Below are positions 6,711 to 23,626 of a stretch of DNA of 64,000 bases, piece after piece. The position numbers and the translations under genes are program-made. The DNA lies in the NCBI RefSeq assembly GCF_015711645.1, contig NZ_JABTEX010000002.1, forward strand, positions 868,001 to 932,000, written 5' to 3'. The notes under the pieces are model-generated. The model did no database searches. It was not told the origin of the DNA and saw nothing but the letters and a program-made list of their open reading frames with translations. Source of the stretch: Planomonospora sp. ID82291. GTDB lineage: Bacteria; Actinomycetota; Actinomycetes; Streptosporangiales; Streptosporangiaceae. Each line of letters opens with the position of its first letter. The first letter of the stretch is position 1.

Positions 6711-7682
6711 TCAGCCCGCGAGGGCCTTGACCAGGTCGTCCAGGACGACCTGGGCGGCGAGCGGCGCGCCGCGGGTGCTCCAGACCGAGCCGTCGACGGA
6801 CACGACATGGTCGGCCTTGACGGCTTTGAGCTCCTTGAAGGCGGGGGTCTCCTTGACCTCGGCGAGGGCCTTCTCCCCGTCGGAGGTGAGGGTGGACAGG
6901 AACAGCCAGTCGCCGTCGATGTCGGACAGCGCCTCCAGGCTCAGCGGCATGGAGTGGGCGGTGCCGTCCTTGTCCTGCGCCTTGGGCCGGGTGAGGCCGA
7001 GGTCGGTGGCGACGAAGCCGGCGAACTGCCGCTTCTCCATCCAGCTCGGGCCCTGCGGGTTCCACCGGACGATGCTCACCTCGGCGGGCTTGACCCTGGT
7101 CTTCGCCTCGGCGACCTTGGCGTCGTAGTCGGCGAGGACCTTCTTGGCCGCGTCGAGCCTGTTCAGGGTGTTGCCGATGCCCATGAACGACAGTTTCCAG
7201 TCGTCGGTGGGGGCCATCGTGACCACCGTCGCAGGGGTGATCTTGCGGAGCTGGTCGAGTATCTGCTGGTCCTGCATGTCCCCGGCGAGGATCAGGTCGG
7301 GCTGGACCTCGACGACCTTGTCGATCACCGGCTGGAGCAGGTTCCCGACGACGGGGATGCCCTGGACCTTGTCGGCGAGGTACGCCGGGGGCTTGTCGAT
7401 GCCCTGGCCGTTGGTGATGCCGACCGGGGTGACGCCGAGGGCGAGGGCGGCGTCGAGGTCCTCCTGGGTGAGGGTGACCACGCGCTTCGGCTCCGCGGGG
7501 ACCTTGATCAGGGTGCCGGTGGCGTCCTTCACCTCGCGGGTGGCGGCCGAGGCCGGTGCGGCGGCGGAGGCCGAGGCCGCGGGCGCCGCTGACGTGTCCG
7601 GGGAGGACGTGCCGCACGCCGCGACGGCCAGGACGGCGAGAGCGGCGGCGAACAGGCCGCCGGCCCTACGGAGGGGGGTCAT
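6711..7682 (-). CDS. iron-siderophore ABC transporter substrate-binding lipoprotein
   Basis: 323 aa. It has a lipoprotein signal with lipobox AVAAC (Cys about 23), a short Ala/Ser linker, then a FecB/FepB-type binding domain: KRVVTLTQEDLDAALALG, DLILAGDMQDQQ and FLSTLTSDG. It should capture a ferric siderophore outside the membrane and pass it to the permease encoded divergently. The shared 55 bp promoter region contains two iron boxes (7700-7738), so iron repression is expected. The ligand is inferred from context to be the catecholate made by the dhb operon. Confidence 0.9.
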   Translation of the reverse strand: MTPLRRAGGLFAAALAVLAVAACGTSSPDTSAAPAASASAAAPASAATREVKDATGTLIKVPAEPKRVVTLTQEDLDAALALGVTPVGITNGQGIDKPPAYLADKVQGIPVVGNLLQPVIDKVVEVQPDLILAGDMQDQQILDQLRKITPATVVTMAPTDDWKLSFMGIGNTLNRLDAAKKVLADYDAKVAEAKTRVKPAEVSIVRWNPQGPSWMEKRQFAGFVATDLGLTRPKAQDKDGTAHSMPLSLEALSDIDGDWLFLSTLTSDGEKALAEVKETPAFKELKAVKADHVVSVDGSVWSTRGAPLAAQVVLDDLVKALAG

Positions 7683-12423: not shown

Positions 12424-12605
12424 CGGCCGACGGCGCGGTCGTGACGGGCGGCCGGGTGCTCGGGCTCGGCGGTGGCGGCCGGTCGGGTGCGGTGGCGGCC
12501 GTCCGGCGCGGCGGGGGCGGGGGCGGTCCGGCCGTGACGGGCGGCCGGGTGCGGCCTCCGGTCCCGGAACGCCACCCCCGTTCGCTCTTCAGGAAACGTT
12601 CAGGC

Positions 12606-12644
12606 TATGGTAAGCCGGTCCTAAGTTAGGTAAGGCTTACGAGT
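12606..12644. promoter_or_regulatory. two iron boxes upstream of efeU
   Basis: The proximal box at 12626-12644 begins ttaggtaaggcttac and has the palindromic core GTAAG-G-CTTAC. A degenerate distal box at 12606-12624, tatggtaagccggtcctaa, matches 12 of 19 consensus positions. Centres are 12615 and 12635, again 20 bp apart. The pair ends 10 bp before the chosen efeU start. Confidence 0.75.
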
Positions 12645-12654
12645 GGAGGCCACC

Positions 12655-13497
12655 GTGCTCGCGAGTTACCTCATCGGCCTCCGTGAAGGTCTGGAGGCGG
12701 CGCTCGTCGTCTCCATCCTGGTGGCCTTCCTCGTCAAGAGCGACCGCCGCGACCGGCTGCCGCTGGTCTGGGCGGGCGTCGGGGCCGCGGCCGTGCTCTC
12801 GATGGTGTTCGGCGCGCTGCTCACCTTCACCGCCGCCCACCTCGACCTGCAGCAGCAGGAGCTGTTCGAGGCGGTCGTCTCGATAGCGGCGACCGTGTTC
12901 GTCACGTCCATGATCTTCTGGATGCGGACGGCCGCCCGGCGGATGTCCGGCGAGCTGCGGGAGAAGCTCGGCGAGGCGCTGCGGCTGGGCCCCGTGGCCG
13001 TCGTCGTGGTGGCGTTCCTCGCGGTGGCGCGCGAGGGGCTGGAGACCACGCTGCTGTGGTTCGCCGCCGTGCAGGGCGCCACCACCACCGCCAGCCCGCT
13101 GATCGGCATCTCCCTCGGCCTGCTGACCGCGGTCGCGCTCGGCTGGGGGCTGTACCGCAGCGCCCTGCGGATCAACCTCACCACGTTCTTCACCTGGACC
13201 GGCCTGCTGCTGATCCTCGTCGCCGCCGGCATCCTCAAGTACGGCGTGCACGACCTGCAGGAGGCCGGGTTCCTGCCGGGGCTGAACACCCACGCCTTCG
13301 ACATCAGCGGCGTCCTCGACCCCGGAGCCTGGTACTCGATGGTGCTGGGCGGCATGTTCAACGTCACCGCCCAGCCGAGCGTCCTGGAGACCGTCGCCTG
13401 GGTCGCCTACGCGGTCCCCGTCCTCGTCCTCTTCCTGTGGCCCGGCGGCAGGACGCCCGCGGGTCCCGCCCCCCAGCCGGCCCAGACCGCTTCCTGA
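12655..13497 (+). CDS. efeU: EfeU ferrous iron permease (FTR1 family)
   Basis: 280 aa with about seven membrane segments. Two copies of the iron-binding REGLE motif are visible: LREGLEAALVV near the N-terminus and AREGLETTLLW in the fourth segment, the defining feature of Ftr1/EfeU. GTG 12655 is chosen because GGAGG lies 5 nt upstream; an in-frame GTG at 12643 overlaps the iron-box region. First gene of efeUOB, 14 bp before efeO. Confidence 0.95.
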   Translation: MLASYLIGLREGLEAALVVSILVAFLVKSDRRDRLPLVWAGVGAAAVLSMVFGALLTFTAAHLDLQQQELFEAVVSIAATVFVTSMIFWMRTAARRMSGELREKLGEALRLGPVAVVVVAFLAVAREGLETTLLWFAAVQGATTTASPLIGISLGLLTAVALGWGLYRSALRINLTTFFTWTGLLLILVAAGILKYGVHDLQEAGFLPGLNTHAFDISGVLDPGAWYSMVLGGMFNVTAQPSVLETVAWVAYAVPVLVLFLWPGGRTPAGPAPQPAQTAS

Positions 13498-13511
13498 CCG
13501 GAGTCAACGCA

Positions 13512-14678
13512 ATGCGCACCCCCACCGCCCTGCCCGCCGCCGTACCCGCCGTGGCGGCCGCCGTCCTCGCCCTCGCCGGTCTCGCCGGCTGCTCGTCGGC
13601 CGATCCCGGCTCCGGCACGGGGGCCACGGCCGCCGCCGGGGCGAAGGACGGCCCGATCGCCGTCGCCGCCACCGACACCGAGTGCAGGGTCGCCGCCGCC
13701 GAGGTGGCCGCGGGCACCTCGACGTTCTCCGTGACCAACGGCGGCGCCAAGGTGACGGAGTTCTACGTCTTCGCCGCGGGCGACCGGGTGATGGGCGAGG
13801 TGGAGAACATCGTCCCCGGCCTGACCCGCGAGCTCGTCGTGGAGCTTCCGGCGGGCACCTACGAGACGGCCTGCAAGCCCGGGATGACCGGCAAGGGCAT
13901 CCGCAACGCCCTCAAGGTCACCGGGGAGCACAAGCCGCTGACGGACGACGCGAAGCTCGCCGAGGCCGTCGCCGGCTACAAGCGGTACGTCAAGTCCCAG
14001 TCGGACACCCTGCTGGTCAAGACCAAGGAGTTCGTGGACGCCGTCAAGGCCGAGGACATCGACAAGGCCAAGGAGCTGTTCCCCGTCTCCCGCACCTACT
14101 GGGAGCGCATCGAGCCGGTGGCGGAGATCTTCGGCGACCTCGACCCGGCGATCGACGCCCGGGAGAACGACGTGGCCGAGGGCGAGGAGTGGACCGGCTT
14201 CCACAAGATCGAGAAGGATCTGTGGGTCGCCGAGGACGTCTCGGGCGACGACGAGCTGGCCGACAAGCTGATGACCGACGTCACCACGATCGTGGAGAAG
14301 GCCAACGCGGCCGAGCTCTCCCCCGTGCAGCTCGCCAACGGCGCCAAGGAGCTGCTCGACGAGGTGGCCACCGGGAAGATCACTGGCGAGGAGGACCGCT
14401 ACTCCCACACGGACCTGTGGGACTTCGCCGCCAACCTCCAGGGCTCCAGGGCCGCGGTCCAGGCGCTCCGCCCGGTCCTGGAGGAGCGCGACCCGGCGCT
14501 GGTGAAGACCCTGGACGAGAGGTTCGCCGCCGCCGAGGCCGCGCTGGAGGCGCACCGCAGCGGCGACGGCTGGAAGCTGCACACCGAGCTGTCGAAGGAG
14601 GACCTGCGCGTGCTGTCGGACGCCATCAACAGCCTCTCCGAGCCGATCAGCAAGGTCGCGGCGGTGGTGGTCCGGTGA
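13512..14678 (+). CDS. efeO: EfeO imelysin-type iron-binding lipoprotein
   Basis: 388 aa. A lipoprotein signal ends LAGLAGC. An N-terminal cupredoxin-like domain (TDTECRVAAAEVAAGTSTF) is followed by the M75 imelysin domain with the metal motif HKIE in TGFHKIEKDLW. EfeO delivers iron to EfeU from the outer face of the membrane. The full-length two-domain form is kept. The stop overlaps the efeB start. Confidence 0.94.
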   Translation: MRTPTALPAAVPAVAAAVLALAGLAGCSSADPGSGTGATAAAGAKDGPIAVAATDTECRVAAAEVAAGTSTFSVTNGGAKVTEFYVFAAGDRVMGEVENIVPGLTRELVVELPAGTYETACKPGMTGKGIRNALKVTGEHKPLTDDAKLAEAVAGYKRYVKSQSDTLLVKTKEFVDAVKAEDIDKAKELFPVSRTYWERIEPVAEIFGDLDPAIDARENDVAEGEEWTGFHKIEKDLWVAEDVSGDDELADKLMTDVTTIVEKANAAELSPVQLANGAKELLDEVATGKITGEEDRYSHTDLWDFAANLQGSRAAVQALRPVLEERDPALVKTLDERFAAAEAALEAHRSGDGWKLHTELSKEDLRVLSDAINSLSEPISKVAAVVVR

Positions 14679-15934
14679 GCGGGCTCAGCCGCCGGTCGCT
14701 GTTCGGGCTGGGCGCCGCGGGCGTCGCCGCCGTCGGGGCCGGCGCGGTCACCGCCCGGGTGCTCGCGGACGAGCCGCCCGCCGCCCGCACGGTGTCGTCG
14801 TCCTCGGCGGCCGACGCGGTGCCGTTCTACGGCGAGCACCAGGCGGGGATCACGACCCCCGCCCAGGACCGGCTGCACTTCGTCGCCTTCGACGTGACCA
14901 CCACCGAGCGGGCCGAGCTGGTCGACCTGCTGCAGGAGTGGACGGCCGCCGCCGCGCGGATGACCCAGGGCAAGGAGGCCGGCGCGCTCGGCGCGGTCGG
15001 CGGGGCCCCGGAGGCCCCGCCGGACGACACCGGCGAGGCCCTCGGCCTGCCCGCCTCCGGCCTCACGCTGACGGTCGGCTTCGGGCCGTCGCTGTTCGAC
15101 GGGCGGTTCGGGCTGGCCGGCCGGAGGCCGCCCGCGCTCGCCGACCTGCCCGCCTTCCCCGGCGACGGGCTGCTGCCCGAGATCTCCGGGGGGGACGTCT
15201 GCGTCCAGGCGTGCGCGCACGACCCGCAGGTGGCCGTGCACGCGATCCGCAACCTCGCGCGGCTCGGGTTCGGCAGGGTGAGCGTGCGCTACTCGCAGCT
15301 GGGCTTCGGCCGTACGTCGTCCACCTCCCGGGCGCAGGCCACCCCGCGCAACCTGATGGGCTTCAAGGACGGCACGAACAACCTCAAGCTCGAGGACACC
15401 GCGATGCTCCGCGACCACCTGTGGGCGGCCCCGGGCGACGGCCCTGCCTGGATGGACGGCGGCGCCTACCTGGTCACCCGCAAGATCCGGATGCACATCG
15501 AGACCTGGGACCGCGCCCCGCTGGCCGAGCAGGAGGCGATCTTCGGCCGGGACAAGGGCGAGGGCGCCCCGCTGTCCGGGAAGGCGGAGTTCGACGAGCC
15601 GGACTTCGCCGCGACCGGTTCCGGCGGCGAGCCGGTGATCCCCCGGGACGCCCACATCCGGCTCGCGCACCCCACCGCGCACGGCGGGGCACGCCTGCTG
15701 CGCCGCGGCTACAACTACGTCGACGGCTCCGACGGCCTGGGCCGGCTCGACGCGGGCCTGTTCTTCATGGCCTACCAGCGCGACCCGCGCAAGCAGTTCG
15801 TCCCGGTGCAGAAGGCGCTGGCCGCCACCGACCCGCTCAACGAGTACATCAAGCACGTCTCCAGCGGCCTGTTCGCCTGCCCGCCCGGCGTGGTGGACGC
15901 GGGCGACCACTGGGGCAGGGCGCTCTTCGCCTGA
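14675..15934 (+). CDS. efeB: EfeB Tat-exported Dyp-type haem peroxidase
   Basis: 419 aa starting at GTG 14675, overlapping the efeO stop by 4 nt. The N-terminus SRRSLFGLGAAG is a Tat signal. The Dyp hallmark GFKDGTNN (GxxDG) and haem-site surroundings such as HIRLAHPTAHGGARLLRRG are present. EfeB is thought to oxidise Fe(II) or act on haem in this system. The gene stops 2 bp before a duplicated gene fragment begins, so its terminator region has been replaced. Confidence 0.95.
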   Translation: MSGLSRRSLFGLGAAGVAAVGAGAVTARVLADEPPAARTVSSSSAADAVPFYGEHQAGITTPAQDRLHFVAFDVTTTERAELVDLLQEWTAAAARMTQGKEAGALGAVGGAPEAPPDDTGEALGLPASGLTLTVGFGPSLFDGRFGLAGRRPPALADLPAFPGDGLLPEISGGDVCVQACAHDPQVAVHAIRNLARLGFGRVSVRYSQLGFGRTSSTSRAQATPRNLMGFKDGTNNLKLEDTAMLRDHLWAAPGDGPAWMDGGAYLVTRKIRMHIETWDRAPLAEQEAIFGRDKGEGAPLSGKAEFDEPDFAATGSGGEPVIPRDAHIRLAHPTAHGGARLLRRGYNYVDGSDGLGRLDAGLFFMAYQRDPRKQFVPVQKALAATDPLNEYIKHVSSGLFACPPGVVDAGDHWGRALFA

Positions 15935-15936
15935 GG

Positions 15937-16447
15937 GGCCGCGGCCCGGCCGGAGCTGGCGGCCTTGGCGGTCATGGTGCACGGCCGCGAGCGCAAGGTC
16001 GTCGAGGCGTTCGCCGCGGCGCTCGCGGAACTGCCCGACGATCACGCTCCGAAGTACTATGAACACGCTTACAGCATGTCCGCACCCGAGGTGCGGCGCC
16101 TTCTGGAGGAGATCATGACGTCCACCACCTGGCCGGTCTACAGCCCCTTCGCCCGTGAGCACTACGGCCGCGGCCTGGAAGAGGGCAAGCTCGAAGGCAA
16201 GGCGGAGGGCAAGGCGGAGGGCAAGGCGGAGGGCAAGGCGGAGGGCAAGGCGGAAGGCAGAGCCGAGGAGGCGGCCCGGCTGGTGCTGCTGGTGCTGGCC
16301 GCCCGCGGTCTGCAGGTGCCGGACGACGTCCGGGCCCGGATCGCCGCCTGCGCCGACCTCGCCCGGCTAGAGTCCTGGGCGACCCGCGCGGTGACCGTCC
16401 CGACCGTGCACGACCTGTTCGGCGAGACGGACGAAGCGGACCGCTGA
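15937..16447 (+). pseudogene. truncated copy of the Rpn-like PD-(D/E)XK gene
   Basis: This segment is nearly identical to the C-terminal half of the gene at 21196-22170 but lacks the whole nuclease half. Homology begins 2 bp after the efeB stop at a point that is mid-gene in the full copy. An open frame of 160 codons remains from TTG 15965 or ATG 15974, containing HGRERKVVEAFAAALAELPD, six Lys/Arg-Ala-Glu repeats and the same C-terminus VPTVHDLFGETDEADR. No ribosome site or promoter of its own is visible. Confidence 0.85.
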
Positions 16448-16484
16448 CGGGCATCCGTCACATGGCTCCGGTGAGCCGTCTCCG
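15937..16484 (+). repeat. direct repeat, left copy (548 bp)
   Basis: Matches 21636-22207 almost base for base, including 37 bp of identical non-coding DNA after the stop codon. The 24 bp length difference corresponds to two 12 bp units in the GKAE repeat. Confidence 0.93.
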
Positions 16485-16637
16485 GCCTGCGACCGGCCTG
16501 CGACCGGAACGTTCGGGTCCGCCGGTCCACCCCGCCGCGCGAGGACGAGCCTGCGGTGCCGGCGCCGAAGGGGCGGGCGCGGGGCGACGCCCGCCGGTGC
16601 CCGGGGGCTCCGGCGGGCGCCTGGACGGCGTCGGCCG

Positions 16638-18917
16638 TTACGGGGCGTCGTAGCCGAGGGTGTAGTTACCGCTGCCGCTGTAGGAGTGGACGCGGTAGCG
16701 GTAGGTGCCGGCGGTGCCGTTGTAGGTCAGGCTCTCATCGGGGCCGTCGGAGGTGCTGCGGGCCACGGTGCTCCAGCCCAGGGAGCCCCGCTTCTGCAGG
16801 TACAGGTCGAAGTCGGCGCCGTCGGGGCCGTCGAGGCAGGCGCGGTGCGTCCCGGTGGCGGTGGTCGGGAAGGAGCCGCCGTCGGGCTGGTACTGGCTGG
16901 CGCCGGAGCTCAGGGTCCCGGTCCTGGTGGTCTCGAAGCCCTGGCAGGCGCCGCCGCCCGGACCGCCCACGGTCAGCGTGAAGGCGGCGGTGCGGGTGGC
17001 GGTGGCGCCGGTGCCGGTGACGGTGACGGGGTAGGTGCCCGCGGGGGTGGTGGCGGAGGTGGCCACGGTCAGTCTCGCGGTGCCGCCGGCCTGTACGGAG
17101 GCGGGGGTGAAGGAGGCGGTGGCGCCCGCGGGCAGGCCGGAGGCGGACAGGGCCACGGTCTGCGCGGAGCCACCGGTGACCTGGGTGGAGACGGTCGCCT
17201 CGACGGAGCCGCCGGGGTCGGTGGAGGCCGAGGCCGGGGCGACCGCGACCGAGAAGTCGTTCCCGGACGAGCACGGGGCGTCGTTGCCCGCCACGTTGAC
17301 CGCGGTCCAGGCCGCCTGGACGGTCCGGTACTCGGCCGAGCAGCTGCCGTACAGGTCGGTGGCGGCGCGGAGCGTGTAGGCGCGGGCGGTGTTGGCCGGG
17401 TTGCCGCTGTTGACGTAGCGGGTGCTGGAGGTGAAGTAGGAGTCCAGCGCCCGGAACCAGATCTTCTCCGCCTTCGCCCGGCCGATGCCGGTCACCGCCG
17501 GGGCCGAGCCGCACACCGGCGAGGTGCCGTACGGGGTCGCCCCGGTCCCCTCGGCGAGGTCGAAGAAGAAGTGGTTGCCGACGCCGGAGGAGTAGTGGAC
17601 GTCGACGCTCGCGGTGGAGGTCGACCAGCAGGAGTGCGAGCTGCCGTCCAGCGCGGGGTTGTACATGTAGCGGAGCGGGGCGCCGTTGCCCCTGATGTCG
17701 ATCTTCTCGCCGACCTGGTAGTCGCCGGGGTCGGCGCTGTTGCCGGCGTAGAACTCGACCATGTTCCCGAAGATGTCGCTGGTGGCCTCGTTCAGGCCGC
17801 CGGACTCGCCGGAGTAGGTCAGGCCGGCGGTGTTCTCGGTCACGCCGTGGGACATCTCGTGCCCGGCCACGTCGATGGCGACCAGCGGCTTGGCGTTGCC
17901 CGAACCGTCGCCGTAGGTCATCTGGGAGCCGTCCCAGAAGGCGTTGACGTAGTTGCTGCCGTAGTGGACCCGGCTCGGCACGCCGCTGCCGTTGCCGAAG
18001 ATGCCGTTGCGGCCGTGCACGTTCTTGAAGTAGTCGAACGTCGTGGCGGCGCCGTGGTGGGCGTCCACTCCGGCCGACTGGCGGTTGCCGTTGGAACCGG
18101 TGCCCCAGGCGTTGTCGGGGTCGCTGAACGTCGTGCACGTGCCGCTGGTGCGGTTGTTCATGTCACACGTTCTGCCGTTGCCGCGGTCCGGGTCGACCAT
18201 GGTGTACGAGCTCCCGGACTGCGTCGTGGAGATCGTGACGGTGCCGGAGTAGATCGAGTTCCCGGTCCCGTCGACCAGGGTGTTCGCGCTGCCCCCGGTG
18301 TGCGCCGGGACGCCCTCGACGGCCGACCGGATCTCGTCGTAGGAGTCGGTGACCTCCCCGGAGGAGGCGTCGACGATCACGTGCAGCCGCGAGGGCGTCT
18401 GCCCGTCGGCGGCCCAGCCGCCGACCACGGTCTCCCAGGCCAGGCGCCCCTGTCCGGAGGAGGCGTCGACGAACAGCTCTGGATCGCCGACCTCGGTGAT
18501 CTTCCCGGTGAACGCGGCCTTGGCCTTCCCCGCGGCGGTGGCGGCCGACGCCTTCGGGGTGGTGCCGAGCGTCAGCGCCTCGGTGAGTCCGACCGAGGCG
18601 TCGGTGAAGGCGCCGTCGGACCCGAGGTGGACGACGAAGTCGCCGCCGCGGACCCGCAGGCCCCGGTAGGTGCGGTGGTAGCGGACGTGCGACGCGCCGT
18701 CGGCGTCCACCCGGACGTTCTGGACCTTGTAGTCGTCCTGGCCGGCCCCGCGGATCGCGTCGCGGTGCCGCTCGATGGCCTGTTCGGCCCTGGCCACGGC
18801 GGCCGCGTCGGCGGGCGCGGGGGGCGGATCCGCCCAGGCGGGTACGGCGAGCACGGTGGCCGCCGTCAGGGCGGTGGCGATACCGACCGGAGTCAGTACC
18901 CGGAGGAACCCTCTCAT
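16638..18917 (-). CDS. secreted M4 family zinc metalloprotease (thermolysin-like)
   Basis: 759 aa. In order: a signal peptide ending near VPAWA, FTP/PepSY propeptide (RTYRGLRVRGGDFVVHLG), M4 catalytic domain with GHEMSHGVTENTAG (HExxH) and GGLNEATSDIFG (third ligand Glu), and an alpha domain with YSSGVGNHFFFDLAE. An Ig-like stretch rich in VTGTGATA repeats follows (about 555-660), and last a pre-peptidase C-terminal domain ending YRVHSYSGSGNYTLGYDAP. ATG 18917 begins the signal peptide; upstream in-frame codons are not protein-like. Function: extracellular neutral protease. It lies inside the segment bounded by the direct repeats. Confidence 0.95.
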   Translation of the reverse strand: MRGFLRVLTPVGIATALTAATVLAVPAWADPPPAPADAAAVARAEQAIERHRDAIRGAGQDDYKVQNVRVDADGASHVRYHRTYRGLRVRGGDFVVHLGSDGAFTDASVGLTEALTLGTTPKASAATAAGKAKAAFTGKITEVGDPELFVDASSGQGRLAWETVVGGWAADGQTPSRLHVIVDASSGEVTDSYDEIRSAVEGVPAHTGGSANTLVDGTGNSIYSGTVTISTTQSGSSYTMVDPDRGNGRTCDMNNRTSGTCTTFSDPDNAWGTGSNGNRQSAGVDAHHGAATTFDYFKNVHGRNGIFGNGSGVPSRVHYGSNYVNAFWDGSQMTYGDGSGNAKPLVAIDVAGHEMSHGVTENTAGLTYSGESGGLNEATSDIFGNMVEFYAGNSADPGDYQVGEKIDIRGNGAPLRYMYNPALDGSSHSCWSTSTASVDVHYSSGVGNHFFFDLAEGTGATPYGTSPVCGSAPAVTGIGRAKAEKIWFRALDSYFTSSTRYVNSGNPANTARAYTLRAATDLYGSCSAEYRTVQAAWTAVNVAGNDAPCSSGNDFSVAVAPASASTDPGGSVEATVSTQVTGGSAQTVALSASGLPAGATASFTPASVQAGGTARLTVATSATTPAGTYPVTVTGTGATATRTAAFTLTVGGPGGGACQGFETTRTGTLSSGASQYQPDGGSFPTTATGTHRACLDGPDGADFDLYLQKRGSLGWSTVARSTSDGPDESLTYNGTAGTYRYRVHSYSGSGNYTLGYDAP

Positions 18918-19429
18918 GCTGTTCTCGCTCTCTGGCGATGTGGGGGGACCGCGGTGGCGGCGTACGGCCGCCGCCGCGGACATCGACGCGAGACCTGCCA
19001 TGGCGGGCGGGGCCCGTCAGGATCTGCCGGCAGGGATCGCCGCGAACAACGCGGACGAACGGTCCCACTCCGGACGGAAATGGGTCAATATTTTCAACTC
19101 CTGCTGCAAACTTCTGTCGATCGACTGCCGGGGTGATCGCTCAGTGCGCCGGGTTCTGCACGGAGAGCGAGGGAAGGCGCTTGCTGCGCCGGGAACCGGC
19201 AAGCGGATCGGCAAGTGCGTCGTCGGGCGGGATCGCGGGTGGCCGGTGGGCGGGGAGCGCCCATGGGCCGATGGGTCGCTGGGCGGAGGGGCCTGGCTCC
19301 GCCGGAAGGCGCTCGGTGGGCGGGAGCGCCCATGGGCCGATGGGTCGCTGGGCGGAGGGCGGCGGGCGGGCGGAGGGGCCTGGCTCCGCCGGAAGGCGCC
19401 CGGTGGGGGACCGGGCGGTCCGCTCGCGG
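18918..19429. other. intergenic region with repeats, no gene seen
   Basis: 512 bp between the start of the M4 protease gene and the end of the XRE regulator. The first 330 bp hold the protease promoter region and nothing I can name. The last 165 bp are the direct repeat described at 19244-19407. Confidence 0.6.
19244..19407. repeat. two direct repeats of 70 and 87 bp
   Basis: Both units begin cggtgggcgg, share gagcgcccatgggccgatgg, tcgctgggcggag and ggcctggctccgccggaagg, and end before another cggtggg at 19401. The second unit has an extra GC-rich insertion of about 17 bp. Confidence 0.85.
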
Positions 19430-20905
19430 TCAGGGGAGGTCGCGGCCGAACCGGTCGGTGAAATCGCGCACATCCGGCCGGCCGCTCCAGCGGGCCGCCA
19501 GCCTGCCGCGCAGCCCGCGCAGTTCCCTGCCGATCAGCGCACTCGGTACGGAGACCGCCTCCGCCAGCACCGGGGCGGCGACGGCCAGCGCCGCTTCCGG
19601 ATCCCCGGCGCACGCGTGGCAGTCGGCCAGCCGCAGCGTGAGCAGCAGCCGGGCGGGACGCATCCGCTCCGCGAGACCGCCCAGCGACCGCTCCATCGCC
19701 TCGGCCGCCAGGCAGGCCACCGACCGGTCCGCCGTCAGGGCGGCGATGTCGCGCAGGGCACCACCCGTCCCCGACTCCAGATGGACCTCTCCGGAGGCCC
19801 CGCACAGCCACGGTGCCTCGGTCAGATCGCGTTCCCCCAGGCGGGACAGGCCCGTCCGGGCCCGCACCAGGTGCCGCCGGGACTCCAGCGCGTCACCGCC
19901 GAGGGCGTGCGCCCGCGCCTCGCAGAGATCGGCCGCGACGGCCGTCCAGCGCAGGCCGGGATCGGCGGTTCTGATCGCGCGTGCGTATGCCAGGGCCGAG
20001 GGAGCGTCGTTCTCCAGGCGGGCGACCGTGCTCATGTCGTAGAGGATGGTGGCGCACGCCCCGATGTCGTCGGATGCGGCGGCCCAGCCCAGCCCTTTGT
20101 GGAGCCAGGCCATCGCCATCCCGTTCTGGCCGCGCTGCATCCGCAGCTCGCCGGCGAGCTGCGCGTAACCGGTGGCGAGCCGCCAGAGCACCCGCCGGGC
20201 CGGCCCCGCGAGCCCCTCCACGCGTCGCGCGATCGCGTGGAGCGCCTGTTCGACCACCGTGATCGTCTCCGGCGACGTCCGCTCGGTGCCGGCGCGCCAG
20301 CAGGCCACCAGGAGCCCGGAGAGCACGTGGACGGTGTCGGAACCGGTATCCGCCGGGAGATCGGAGGCGCAGAACGCGAGATACGCCGGGAGCGCGTCCA
20401 CCGGCGCGGGAACCGTACAGCCCGCGTCGTCGTGGAGGGGGCACTCGAAGCCGCGGCCGGGCAGGCGGCACGGCCAGCCGAACACGTCCGGGAAGACCAG
20501 GCCGGCGGCTCCGGCGTCCCTGCCGTCTCCGCTGCCCGCGCCGTCCCCGCCGTCGCCGGGCAGTGGGCCGAATCTGCTTCCGGCGGCCCCGGGCGGTGGG
20601 CCGAGTCCGCTTCTGCCGATGGCCCCGGGCGCACCTTCCGTCTCCTCGTGCCGGGATGCCGTATAGACCGCCAGCAGCTCCCCGCCGGCTCCGAGGACCT
20701 CGTCGAGGCGGCGGGCCAACTGCGGCGACGGCTCGCGCCTGCCGCCCTCCAGCTTGCTGATGGCGCTGTGATCGTAACCGACCCTGGTACCGACCTGTGC
20801 CTGGGTGAGACCGGCCCGCTGCCGCCAACGGCGGAGCTGACGGCCGAACTCGGCCCAAGGCGTCAGCGCTCCGGGTGCGTCCGCCCGAGTGTCGACGACG
20901 TCCAC
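19430..20905 (-). CDS. XRE-family helix-turn-helix regulator with TPR-like C-terminus
   Basis: 491 aa. An N-terminal HTH_3 domain (about 18-75: LRRWRQRAGLTQAQVGTRVG and SAISKLEGGRREPSP) is followed by a Gly/Ser linker and a long all-helical C-terminal region resembling tetratricopeptide arrays of actinobacterial regulators. Start GTG 20905 has GGGAGG 4 nt upstream. It may control itself or the adjacent M4 protease; no operator was found. Confidence 0.85.
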   Translation of the reverse strand: MDVVDTRADAPGALTPWAEFGRQLRRWRQRAGLTQAQVGTRVGYDHSAISKLEGGRREPSPQLARRLDEVLGAGGELLAVYTASRHEETEGAPGAIGRSGLGPPPGAAGSRFGPLPGDGGDGAGSGDGRDAGAAGLVFPDVFGWPCRLPGRGFECPLHDDAGCTVPAPVDALPAYLAFCASDLPADTGSDTVHVLSGLLVACWRAGTERTSPETITVVEQALHAIARRVEGLAGPARRVLWRLATGYAQLAGELRMQRGQNGMAMAWLHKGLGWAAASDDIGACATILYDMSTVARLENDAPSALAYARAIRTADPGLRWTAVAADLCEARAHALGGDALESRRHLVRARTGLSRLGERDLTEAPWLCGASGEVHLESGTGGALRDIAALTADRSVACLAAEAMERSLGGLAERMRPARLLLTLRLADCHACAGDPEAALAVAAPVLAEAVSVPSALIGRELRGLRGRLAARWSGRPDVRDFTDRFGRDLP

Positions 20906-21195
20906 CAGACCTCCCGCGCGCACGGAGCACACCGCGTGGCGCGATATGTCACCACTCGGTCACCGAGGTGCCGGGATCGTAACACCCGCCGTCCGCCACT
21001 GATATAAGCCTTCCGCGCAGACCGGCCATCCGGCTTTGAGGGAATGTGATCCCCTCAAGCTCCTGGCTCATGTCCGGTGTCCAGTGAATGATCTGGTTCT
21101 GTGGGAAGTTCTGGGAAGTCCGCGGTTCGGCAGCGGATCGTCGGTCCATCACCGATGTGATTACTCAATGTGATTCATGTGTGACAATAAGCGAC

Positions 21196-22170
21196 GTGCC
21201 ATCTCCCCGACATGACTCTCTGATCAACCTCTTCCGCGACCGCCCCGAGCTGGCCGTGGAGATCCTGCGCGACCTGCTGGGGCAGGACCTGCCCGTCACC
21301 CCGCTGGTCCGGCTGGAGAACACGACGTTCAACACCCGGCCCTCCGACGACATCGAGGCCGACCTGGTCCTCGCCCTGGGGCCGCCGGCCGCTCCGGCGC
21401 ACGCGATCATCGTCGAGATCCAGCAGGACAAATCCAAGAATCCCCGGCAGCTCGCCCGCTACGCCGCCGCGCTCTGGCTGCTGCTGGGCTGCGACGTCAC
21501 GGTCCTGGTGGTCTGCCCCGACGCCAGGACCGCCGAGTACTACGCCCGGCCGATCGATTCGGGCCTGTCCGGTTACCGGCTGCAGGCCTGCGTGCTGGGG
21601 CCGGACGGCATCCCCGCCATCACCGACCCGCAGCAGGCCGCGGCCCGGCCGGAGCTGGCGGCGATGGCGGTCATGGTGCACGGCCGCCAGCGCAAGGTCG
21701 TCGAGGCGTTCGCCGCGGCGCTCGCGGAACTGCCCGACGATCACGCTCCGAAGTACTATGAACACGCATACAGCATGTCCGCACCCGAGGTGCGGCGCCT
21801 CCTGGAGGAGATCATGACGTCCACCACCTGGCCGGTCTACAGCCCCTTCGCCCGTGAGCACTACAGCCGCGGCCTGGAGGAAGGGAAGGCCAAGGGCAGA
21901 GCGGAAGGGAAAGCGGAGGGCAAGGCGGAGGGCAAGGCGGAGGGTAAGGCGGAGGGCAAGGCGGAGGGCAAGGCGGAGGGCAAGGCGGAGGAGGCGGCCC
22001 GGCTGGTGCTGCTGGTGCTGGCCGCCCGCGGTCTGGAAGTGCCGGACGACGTCCGCGCCCGGATCGCCTCCTGCGCCGACCTCGGTCGGCTGGAATCCTG
22101 GGCGACCCGCGCGGTGACCGTCCCGACCGTGCACGACCTGTTCGGCGAGACGGACGAAGCGGACCGCTGA
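21196..22170 (+). CDS. Rpn-like PD-(D/E)XK nuclease-family protein
   Basis: 324 aa. The N-terminal half has the restriction-like fold signature: DDIEADLVLALG followed by HAIIVEIQQDKSKN (D...ExQ..K), preceded by DSLINLFRDRPELAVEILRD. A linker and then a highly charged repeat of eight GKAE-type tetrapeptides (about 236-270) lead to a helical tail ending LFGETDEADR. Related proteins are annotated as transposase-like or recombination-promoting nucleases. GTG 21196 gives a typical N-terminus; GTG 21181 is possible. The second half is duplicated at 15937. Confidence 0.78.
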   Translation: MPSPRHDSLINLFRDRPELAVEILRDLLGQDLPVTPLVRLENTTFNTRPSDDIEADLVLALGPPAAPAHAIIVEIQQDKSKNPRQLARYAAALWLLLGCDVTVLVVCPDARTAEYYARPIDSGLSGYRLQACVLGPDGIPAITDPQQAAARPELAAMAVMVHGRQRKVVEAFAAALAELPDDHAPKYYEHAYSMSAPEVRRLLEEIMTSTTWPVYSPFAREHYSRGLEEGKAKGRAEGKAEGKAEGKAEGKAEGKAEGKAEGKAEEAARLVLLVLAARGLEVPDDVRARIASCADLGRLESWATRAVTVPTVHDLFGETDEADR

Positions 22171-22207
22171 CGGGCATCCGTCACATGGCTCCGGTGAGCC
22201 GTCTCCG
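21636..22207 (+). repeat. direct repeat, right copy (572 bp)
   Basis: Partner of 15937-16484. The two copies frame 5.15 kb holding the M4 protease gene, the XRE regulator and the 5' half of the Rpn-like gene. Confidence 0.93.
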
Positions 22208-22235
22208 CCTTCGGCGTGGCCGGGGGCGGAGACGG
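22199..22235. terminator. hairpin between convergent genes
   Basis: An 11 bp perfect stem CCGTCTCCGCC / GGCGGAGACGG with a 15 nt loop, between the Rpn-like gene and the end of the MFS gene. Confidence 0.6.
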
Positions 22236-22240
22236 ACCGG

Positions 22241-23626
22241 TCATCCGGCTCGGGCCACGACCGCCGCCGGTGTCAGGAGCACCGCGGCCAGGAACGCCGC
22301 CGCGAGGAAGGCGGCGGAGACCAGCAGCGCGGCCGGGTAGCCGGCGGCGACCGCGAGGGCGCAGACGCCCACGCCCAGCGCGCCGCCGAGCATGCGCAGC
22401 GACTGGAACAGGGTCATGGCCCGGCCCATCACCTCCGGGCCGACGCCGTCGAACGCCGAGATCTGGACCGCCGTCACCGCGTGCCCGAGCACCAGGCCCA
22501 CCGAGAACATGATCGCTCTCAGGGCCCAGGGGCCGGGGGCGGCCAGGGCGAGCACCGTGAACAGCGCCGCACCGCCGAGCAGGCCGAGCGCCGTCACCCG
22601 CCGTTCGCCCCACCGGGCGCAGACCCGGTCGACGGCGAACCCGGCGGCCATCAGTCCCAGCGCCTCGGGGAAGACCACCAGCCCGGCCTCCGAGGCCGAG
22701 GCGCCCAGCGCGTCCTGGTACATCAGCGGGAAGACGAAGAGCATGCCCATCAGGCCCGCCGCCGCCAGGGACGCCGCCGCGGCGCCGCGCAGGAAGCCGC
22801 GGTCGGCGAGCGGCCGCAGGTCCAGCAGCGGAGAGGCGGCCGTCCGCTCGGCCGGGACCAGCAGGGCGGTGAGCACCGCCCCGGCCGCCAGCGCCGCGAT
22901 CACCCACGGGGATGCCCAGCCGCCCGCGGCGGCCTCGCCCAGCCCGTACATCAGCAGGCCGAAGCCGGAGGCGGCCAGCAGCAGGCCGCGCAGGTCGAAC
23001 CGGCCCGCCGCCCCCGCTCCGGGGGAGGGGACACGGACGGCCGCGAGTCCGAGGAGCACCGCGGCGACGCCGAAGGGCACGTTGAGATGGAACGCCCACC
23101 GCCAGGAGAGGTGGTCGGCCAGCAGCCCGCCGAGGACCGGGCCCAGCGCGGGGGCCAGCGCCGTCGGCACGACGATGTACCGCGACAGCCGCATCCGCTC
23201 CTCGGGGGCGTAGGCGGTGAACAGCATCGTCATGCCGGCCGGGGTCAGCACCCCGCCGCCGACGCCCTGCAGCACCCGGAAGCCCACCAGGGAGTCCAGG
23301 TTCCAGGCCAGCCCGCACAGCGCCGACGCCGCGGTGAACAGCGCCAGCGCGGCGAGGAACACCCGCGCCGCGCCGTACCGGTCGCACAGCCACCCGGCGA
23401 CCGGCATGGACACCGCCAGGCTGGCCAGGAAGGAGCCCTCCACCAGGTTCGCGGCGGCCGGGCCCACGCCGAGGTCGGCGGCGATGGAGAACAGCGCCGG
23501 GTTGACGATCGTCGCGTCCAGGCCGTTCATGCACATGGCCGTCACGTAGACGGTCAGTACGGCCCCGCGCGCGGCCCGGCCCGCCTCCGCCGGACGGTCC
23601 CGCGCCGGGGTGGACGATCCACTCAC
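22241..23626 (-). CDS. MFS transporter, DHA2/EmrB-QacA type, probable siderophore exporter
   Basis: 461 aa, strongly hydrophobic, about 14 helices. MFS motif A is [14 protein letters not shown] after the second helix, and the DHA motif C region is [21 protein letters not shown]2 members are proton-driven exporters. It is the last gene of the dhb operon and its GTG overlaps the mbtH stop (GTGA). Export of the new catechol siderophore is inferred from this position. Confidence 0.9.

Follow-up and report, generated by a model that had tools for sequence, protein, structure and literature searches.

In the 64,000-nucleotide stretch of Planomonospora sp. ID82291 DNA analysed here (the window), a truncated and a complete copy of an rpn-like gene flank a thermolysin-like metalloprotease gene and its neighbouring regulator. 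The explanation that we consider probable as a whole is that the rpn-like family has a gene-within-gene organization, in which the full gene would encode an RpnL-like nuclease and, from an internal site, an RpnS-like C-terminal helical product, and that the left copy is a deletion remnant probably still encoding an RpnS-like protein.

The repeat pair and its neighbours

The arrangement comprises the following features, given in window coordinates with their strand:

12643-15934, forward: efeU-efeO-efeB iron-uptake operon; 95% nucleotide identity and collinear with the P. parontospora locus (L102); absent between hydrolase and Rpn in L079, L067, L070 and L066
14675-15934, forward: efeB (TIGR01412, E 2.4e-159)
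15937-16484, forward: left copy, 3' half of the rpn-like gene (from about codon 147) plus 37 bp of 3' flank; very probable deletion remnant, with 558 bp absent at the efeB junction relative to L102
16105-16111, forward: internal Shine-Dalgarno GGAGGAG of the left copy, kept across the family beyond codon choice
16115-16447, forward: predicted stand-alone RpnS-like ORF of the left copy, 110 aa, from alignment with stand-alone relatives and the C-termini of full genes
16187-16270, forward: tetrapeptide-repeat array of the left copy, 7 units (computed)
16638-19001, reverse: M4 (thermolysin-like) metalloprotease (PF01447, PF02868); L102 orthologue at 89% (amino acids)
19430-20932, reverse: NsdA-family HTH regulator, partner of the protease (NF053720); adjoins an M4 homologue in four other genomes (L146-L149)
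21127-22207, forward: right-copy unit (promoter region, complete gene and 3' flank); homologous to L102 5932-6953, absent between NsdA and MFS in L102
21196-22170, forward: complete rpn-like gene, 324 aa, GTG start, predicted RpnL-like PD-(D/E)XK nuclease (hhalign to E. coli RpnA/C/E, fold matches)
21804-21810, forward: internal Shine-Dalgarno GGAGGAG of the right copy, likewise kept across the family beyond codon choice
21814-22170, forward: internal RpnS-like ORF of the right copy, predicted from sequence
21886-21993, forward: tetrapeptide-repeat array of the right copy, 9 units (computed)
22241-23626, reverse: MFS (DHA2) exporter (TIGR00711) beside a siderophore-type NRPS; Rpn-MFS adjacency in L079, L067, L070 and L066

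An earlier sequence-only reading of this DNA had described direct repeats framing the M4 protease and the regulator, and repeats of more than 500 bp indeed lie on either side, at 15937-16484 and 21636-22207, on the same strand and with about 5.7 kb between their starts. Also as that reading had it, the left repeat starts 2 bp downstream of the efeB stop codon (TGA, 15932-15934), both copies show 37 bp of further identity 3' of the stop codon, and the full gene, with its GTG start, stands at the far end. The two repeats are about 96% identical outside indels and the tetrapeptide array, the left one being 24 bp (two tetrapeptide units) shorter within this (EGKA)n-coding array, and their length and identity exclude chance similarity. 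The reading frame of the left copy is open up to the stop common to both copies. It is also the frame of efeB, with the TGA alone between the two (15932-16447), and read-through would yield an efeB fusion. The same genome carries a third copy on contig C7, which shows 94-97% identity along most of its length, and, on contig C9, a distant relative (36%). The number of tetrapeptide units differs in each of the close copies, being nine in the right, seven in the left and one in that of C7.

The protease and the NsdA-type regulator (16638-20932) form a divergent pair conserved in other genera of the family and apparently represent a portable two-gene module. Between them, at 19253-19409, direct repeats of about 38-44 bp occur at spacings of 69 and 87 bp; the alignment to P. 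parontospora breaks at this array, which seems specific to this genome. No integrase or transposase was found among the identified ORFs of the segment between the Rpn copies, nor any repeat-to-repeat deletion in relatives, and the segment is accordingly classed neither as a mobile element nor as a repeat-bounded island.

Gene order in relatives and the origin of the left copy

The closest comparison is provided by P. parontospora JCM 3093 (L102), where the order is efeU-efeO-efeB, complete rpn-like gene, M4 protease, NsdA regulator and MFS exporter, with no rpn-like gene between NsdA and MFS. The flanks on either side of the left copy are collinear between the two genomes, window 12567-15943 and 15937-19253 corresponding to L102 2521-5889 and 6441-9722, and what the window lacks in between is 558 bp comprising (i) a strong hairpin after efeB (z -5.0), (ii) the promoter region, and (iii) codons 1-146. 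Because L102 has an intact gene at this place between collinear flanks, the left copy is read as the remnant of a complete gene: very probably a resident gene truncated at its 5' end by deletion, not an inserted tail, the deletion being deduced from comparison with this one relative. A second, formerly complete rpn-like gene would thus have stood between efeB and the M4 protease, and a 558-bp deletion in this lineage would have removed its front half together with the hairpin.

In P. venezuelensis and three Planobispora species (L079, L067, L070, L066) the order is hydrolase, rpn-like gene, MFS and NRPS, with no efeUOB, protease or regulator between those genes. This gene order looks older, which makes the MFS exporter, on sequence comparison, an old neighbour of the rpn-like gene, and indicates that efeUOB, the protease and the regulator arrived later, on the branch of this genome and P. 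parontospora. As for the right copy, fewer events are needed if it is a new duplicate in this genome than if it is old and P. parontospora has lost it. The 37 bp of its 3' flank match those of the left copy of this genome exactly, but not those of L102, an identity that could equally stem from gene conversion. Downstream of the right copy, at 22171-22240, lies a very stable hairpin (z -6.0), of which the left copy has the first arm only. Among the family loci fetched from other genera, none has efeB followed by an Rpn tail, and none is close enough for dating.

The sequence-only reading had proposed that the left copy arose by insertion or an Rpn-linked rearrangement beside efeB, so that the Rpn copies would bound a 5-kb protease/regulator segment losable by recombination. 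The area by the iron genes has been rearranged, as proposed; the insertion itself is contradicted by the intact gene that P. parontospora has there. Flanking direct repeats of such length, a portable gene pair and the absence of protease and regulator from four relatives speak for this model, but P. parontospora carries the segment with an intact gene at its left and none at its right, and the persistence of the segment consequently does not need paired repeats. Moreover, the relatives without the segment lack efeUOB as well and look ancestral, and none of the five relatives compared shows the predicted outcome of a deletion, with efeB running into the Rpn tail and the protease gone. The insertion model is thus considered very unlikely, while deletion of the segment by recombination between the copies is, as an event, possible. 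The arrangement that the same reading had named as evidence against itself, an identical order with diverged copies, was not encountered either, the nearest relative having only the left-position gene, intact.

A Campbell-type integration is a stronger contender, though still judged unlikely. Here a circle bearing the protease, the regulator and an Rpn gene would have recombined with the Rpn gene already resident to give two copies, of which P. parontospora later lost the right one and this genome half of the left. In its favour, Rpn beside MFS is the older state, the right copy keeps the MFS on its 3' side and has a 5' flank like that of the gene next to efeB, and the copies do recombine; on the other hand, it requires one event more than the arrival of efeUOB and the protease pair on the two sides of a resident gene followed by duplication here, it leaves efeUOB between the hydrolase and the left copy unexplained, and no circle or integrase is seen. 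With deletion of a resident gene as the preferred origin, the locus offers a caution for genome reading: a half gene at the border of a segment may be what a deletion left behind.

The identity between copies is likewise open to a reading other than recency. When complete genes are placed on a tree, the right copy pairs with the C7 copy from its own genome (98/95), and so do both copies from P. parontospora with each other (84/85), even though their flanks (2.5 kb at 90.5%) mark C7 and L065 of P. parontospora as orthologues; copies therefore cluster by genome, not by position. In addition, the three close copies are mosaics, the left following C7 mid-gene and the right copy at the 3' end and past the stop. 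Since copies within a genome are closer than positional orthologues, their high identity is attributed to gene conversion, not to recent duplication, and the sequences indicate that dispersed rpn-like copies undergo homogenisation. High repeat identity is then not a measure of age.

The complete gene and its probable internal start

Searches of the protein against Pfam, NCBIfam and PADLOC gave no Rpn model, the FliH/Yae1 matches obtained being repeat-driven noise, and the Rpn models (Transposase_31, PDDEXK_2; Pfam/COG5464) gave no match up to E 10 with the window protein and six relatives; the gene is therefore filed as Rpn-like only, not as an Rpn family member. A profile of 55 relatives nevertheless aligns with E. 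coli RpnA/C/E (hhalign E 3e-5 in a single comparison, probability 73%, 26% identity over 90 residues), the match being limited to the first 90 residues. D56 and E74-x-Q76 fall in register with D63 and E82-x-Q84 of RpnA, and D56, E74 and Q76 are invariant across the 55 alignment rows. The predicted structure (mean pLDDT 87) finds PD-(D/E)XK nucleases as its top fold matches, the best being NucS/EndoMS (Z 8.7, rmsd 3.0-3.1, 99-101 residues). From profile and model together, the full product is predicted to be an RpnL-like PD-(D/E)XK nuclease that Pfam does not recognise.

DUF4351 (PF14261), the annotation of some separate RpnS proteins (PMC10327210), matches the C-termini of several members weakly at the right place, the best at E 1.3e-4; none of these matches reaches the curated cut-off. 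The copy in the window scores E 0.17, and a DUF4351 search across its own genome gave no match. The RpnS parts of this family and of E. coli align poorly by hhalign. A sequence search of the PDB, where the small protein of E. coli RpnA is entry 7th0, returned nothing relevant to the window family. The model of the small ORF, of modest confidence, shows a long helix followed by short helices, and a fold search with this low-confidence model gave no RpnS-like match.

Within the gene, the position of Met207 carries a start codon in 89/89 genes (84 ATG and 5 GTG), a set of full genes or genes scored as such that includes the left half copy. A Shine-Dalgarno of at least 4 nt at the right distance precedes it in all 86 genes counted, which leave out the left half copy and two genes with an internal deletion; with synonymous codons redrawn 500 times, the mean is 54 and the maximum 66. 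The bias extends to single codons, the first Glu codon of the site being GAG in 84/84 against a background of 63%, and the Leu at -4 ending in G in 48/49, compared with 7/50 for the Leu at -5. These counts are over related sequences, not independent events, with shared ancestry uncorrected. These codon patterns lend strong support to a conserved internal ribosome-binding site, and translation starting internally at the Met207 site is accordingly held with high confidence. The same observations could be imagined as protein constraints, with L-E-E-I-M conserved as part of a helix, and the residues are indeed well conserved; however, synonymous codons are biased towards the Shine-Dalgarno, all non-Met cases at the position are GTG and lie in full genes, and stand-alone copies start at this very site. 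Furthermore, a stand-alone copy in L094 (about 6905-6920) keeps GGAGGAG before its ATG despite a shifted reading frame, which selection on the DNA site instead of the peptide would predict. Protein constraint is hence regarded as most improbable. Codon patterns of this kind provide evidence for an internal start that is independent of experiments.

The C-terminal unit as a separate gene

One or more extra C-terminal-only genes lie just downstream of the full gene in 16/80 named loci, counted by hand, and in one locus (L053, 2493-3546) a full rpn-like gene is followed by three stand-alone C-terminal copies in tandem. In the pairs examined, homology between stand-alone and full gene stops 2-58 nt upstream of the internal start, and this edge defines the unit copied: the ORF together with its internal ribosome site. 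Within the small ORF the array starts near residue 21-25, which coincides with the end of the published E. coli range (8-20 residues after the internal Met) or lies just past it; the array varies in repeat number among members with lengths that step by 4, and differs in length between full and stand-alone gene in 13/16 pairs. The idea of a consistently lower repeat number in stand-alone copies had to be given up, as 8 have fewer, 5 more and 3 an equal or nearly equal number.

The RpnS of E. coli, made from the internal start, binds the nuclease RpnL and inhibits it; rpnS also occurs as separate genes, and the addition of one repeat abolishes inhibition (PMC10327210, Zhong et al. 2023). By analogy, the full gene at the right would encode a nuclease together with an inhibitor of it, and the left copy, which keeps the whole internal unit, may give a stand-alone RpnS-like protein of 110 aa. 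With the hairpin after efeB gone, transcripts of the iron operon are likely to run on into the left copy, and the remnant is now probably transcribed with efeUOB. That the small product acts as an antitoxin is, on the E. coli precedent, evenly balanced. If the E. coli length-matching rule holds, arrays of seven, nine and one units lead one to expect no cross-inhibition, and the left product would be a poor antitoxin for the right gene or for C7.

That the left copy yields a functional product we hold only tentatively. The competing view, somewhat better placed but still short of even, is that the copy is debris: a truncated rpn-like pseudogene without product, whose similarity to the other copies gene conversion has maintained. 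This view is compatible with a deletion origin and contests solely the functional product. Consistent with debris, the 5' edge of the copy lies 178 nt upstream of the internal start and so does not match that of stand-alone genes elsewhere, its promoter region is lost, conversion with the other copies is evident, and some other family members contain stop codons. Yet its frame is open to the stop, the internal Shine-Dalgarno and ATG are intact, and the array has changed by whole 12-bp units only. The dN/dS of the left copy (0.3-0.5) is like that of full copies, a value based on few changes and confounded by gene conversion.

The family resembles the E. coli RpnL/RpnS system (rpnA-E) in (i) a PD-(D/E)XK N-terminus with D...E-x-Q, (ii) an internal Shine-Dalgarno and ATG, (iii) a predicted helical C-terminal part with a variable number of tetrapeptides, the array here starting about 20 residues after the internal Met, at the edge of the E. 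coli range or slightly outside it, and (iv) extra stand-alone C-terminal genes downstream. It differs in being actinobacterial, without a Pfam Rpn match and with N-terminal similarity confined to the modest level given above, and in that stand-alone copies usually depart from the repeat number of their linked full gene; the left copy, moreover, lies 5 kb upstream, behind an iron operon, and the likeness is here known from sequence. The rpnE-ypaA pair of E. coli K-12, where a stand-alone rpnS follows rpnE (PMC10327210), similarly has a separate C-terminal unit near a full gene, but directly downstream of it, whereas that of the window stands upstream and was formed, on the preferred reading, by 5' truncation of a full copy.

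On this sequence comparison, the gene-within-gene toxin-antitoxin design would extend to an unannotated actinobacterial family, whose natural full/stand-alone pairs with known repeat-length mismatches are direct material for the length-matching rule of E. coli. A broader proposal, which we consider improbable, is that Streptosporangiales Rpn-like genes repeatedly release the internal unit as separate antitoxins with unmatched repeat lengths and specificities, the one here having come under iron-operon control via efeUOB; if true, iron supply would set the antitoxin level in this genome. Finally, E. coli K-12 rpnA adjoins the feoABC iron operon (L167, 4164-8046), which recalls the window copy beside efeUOB and is probably a coincidence.
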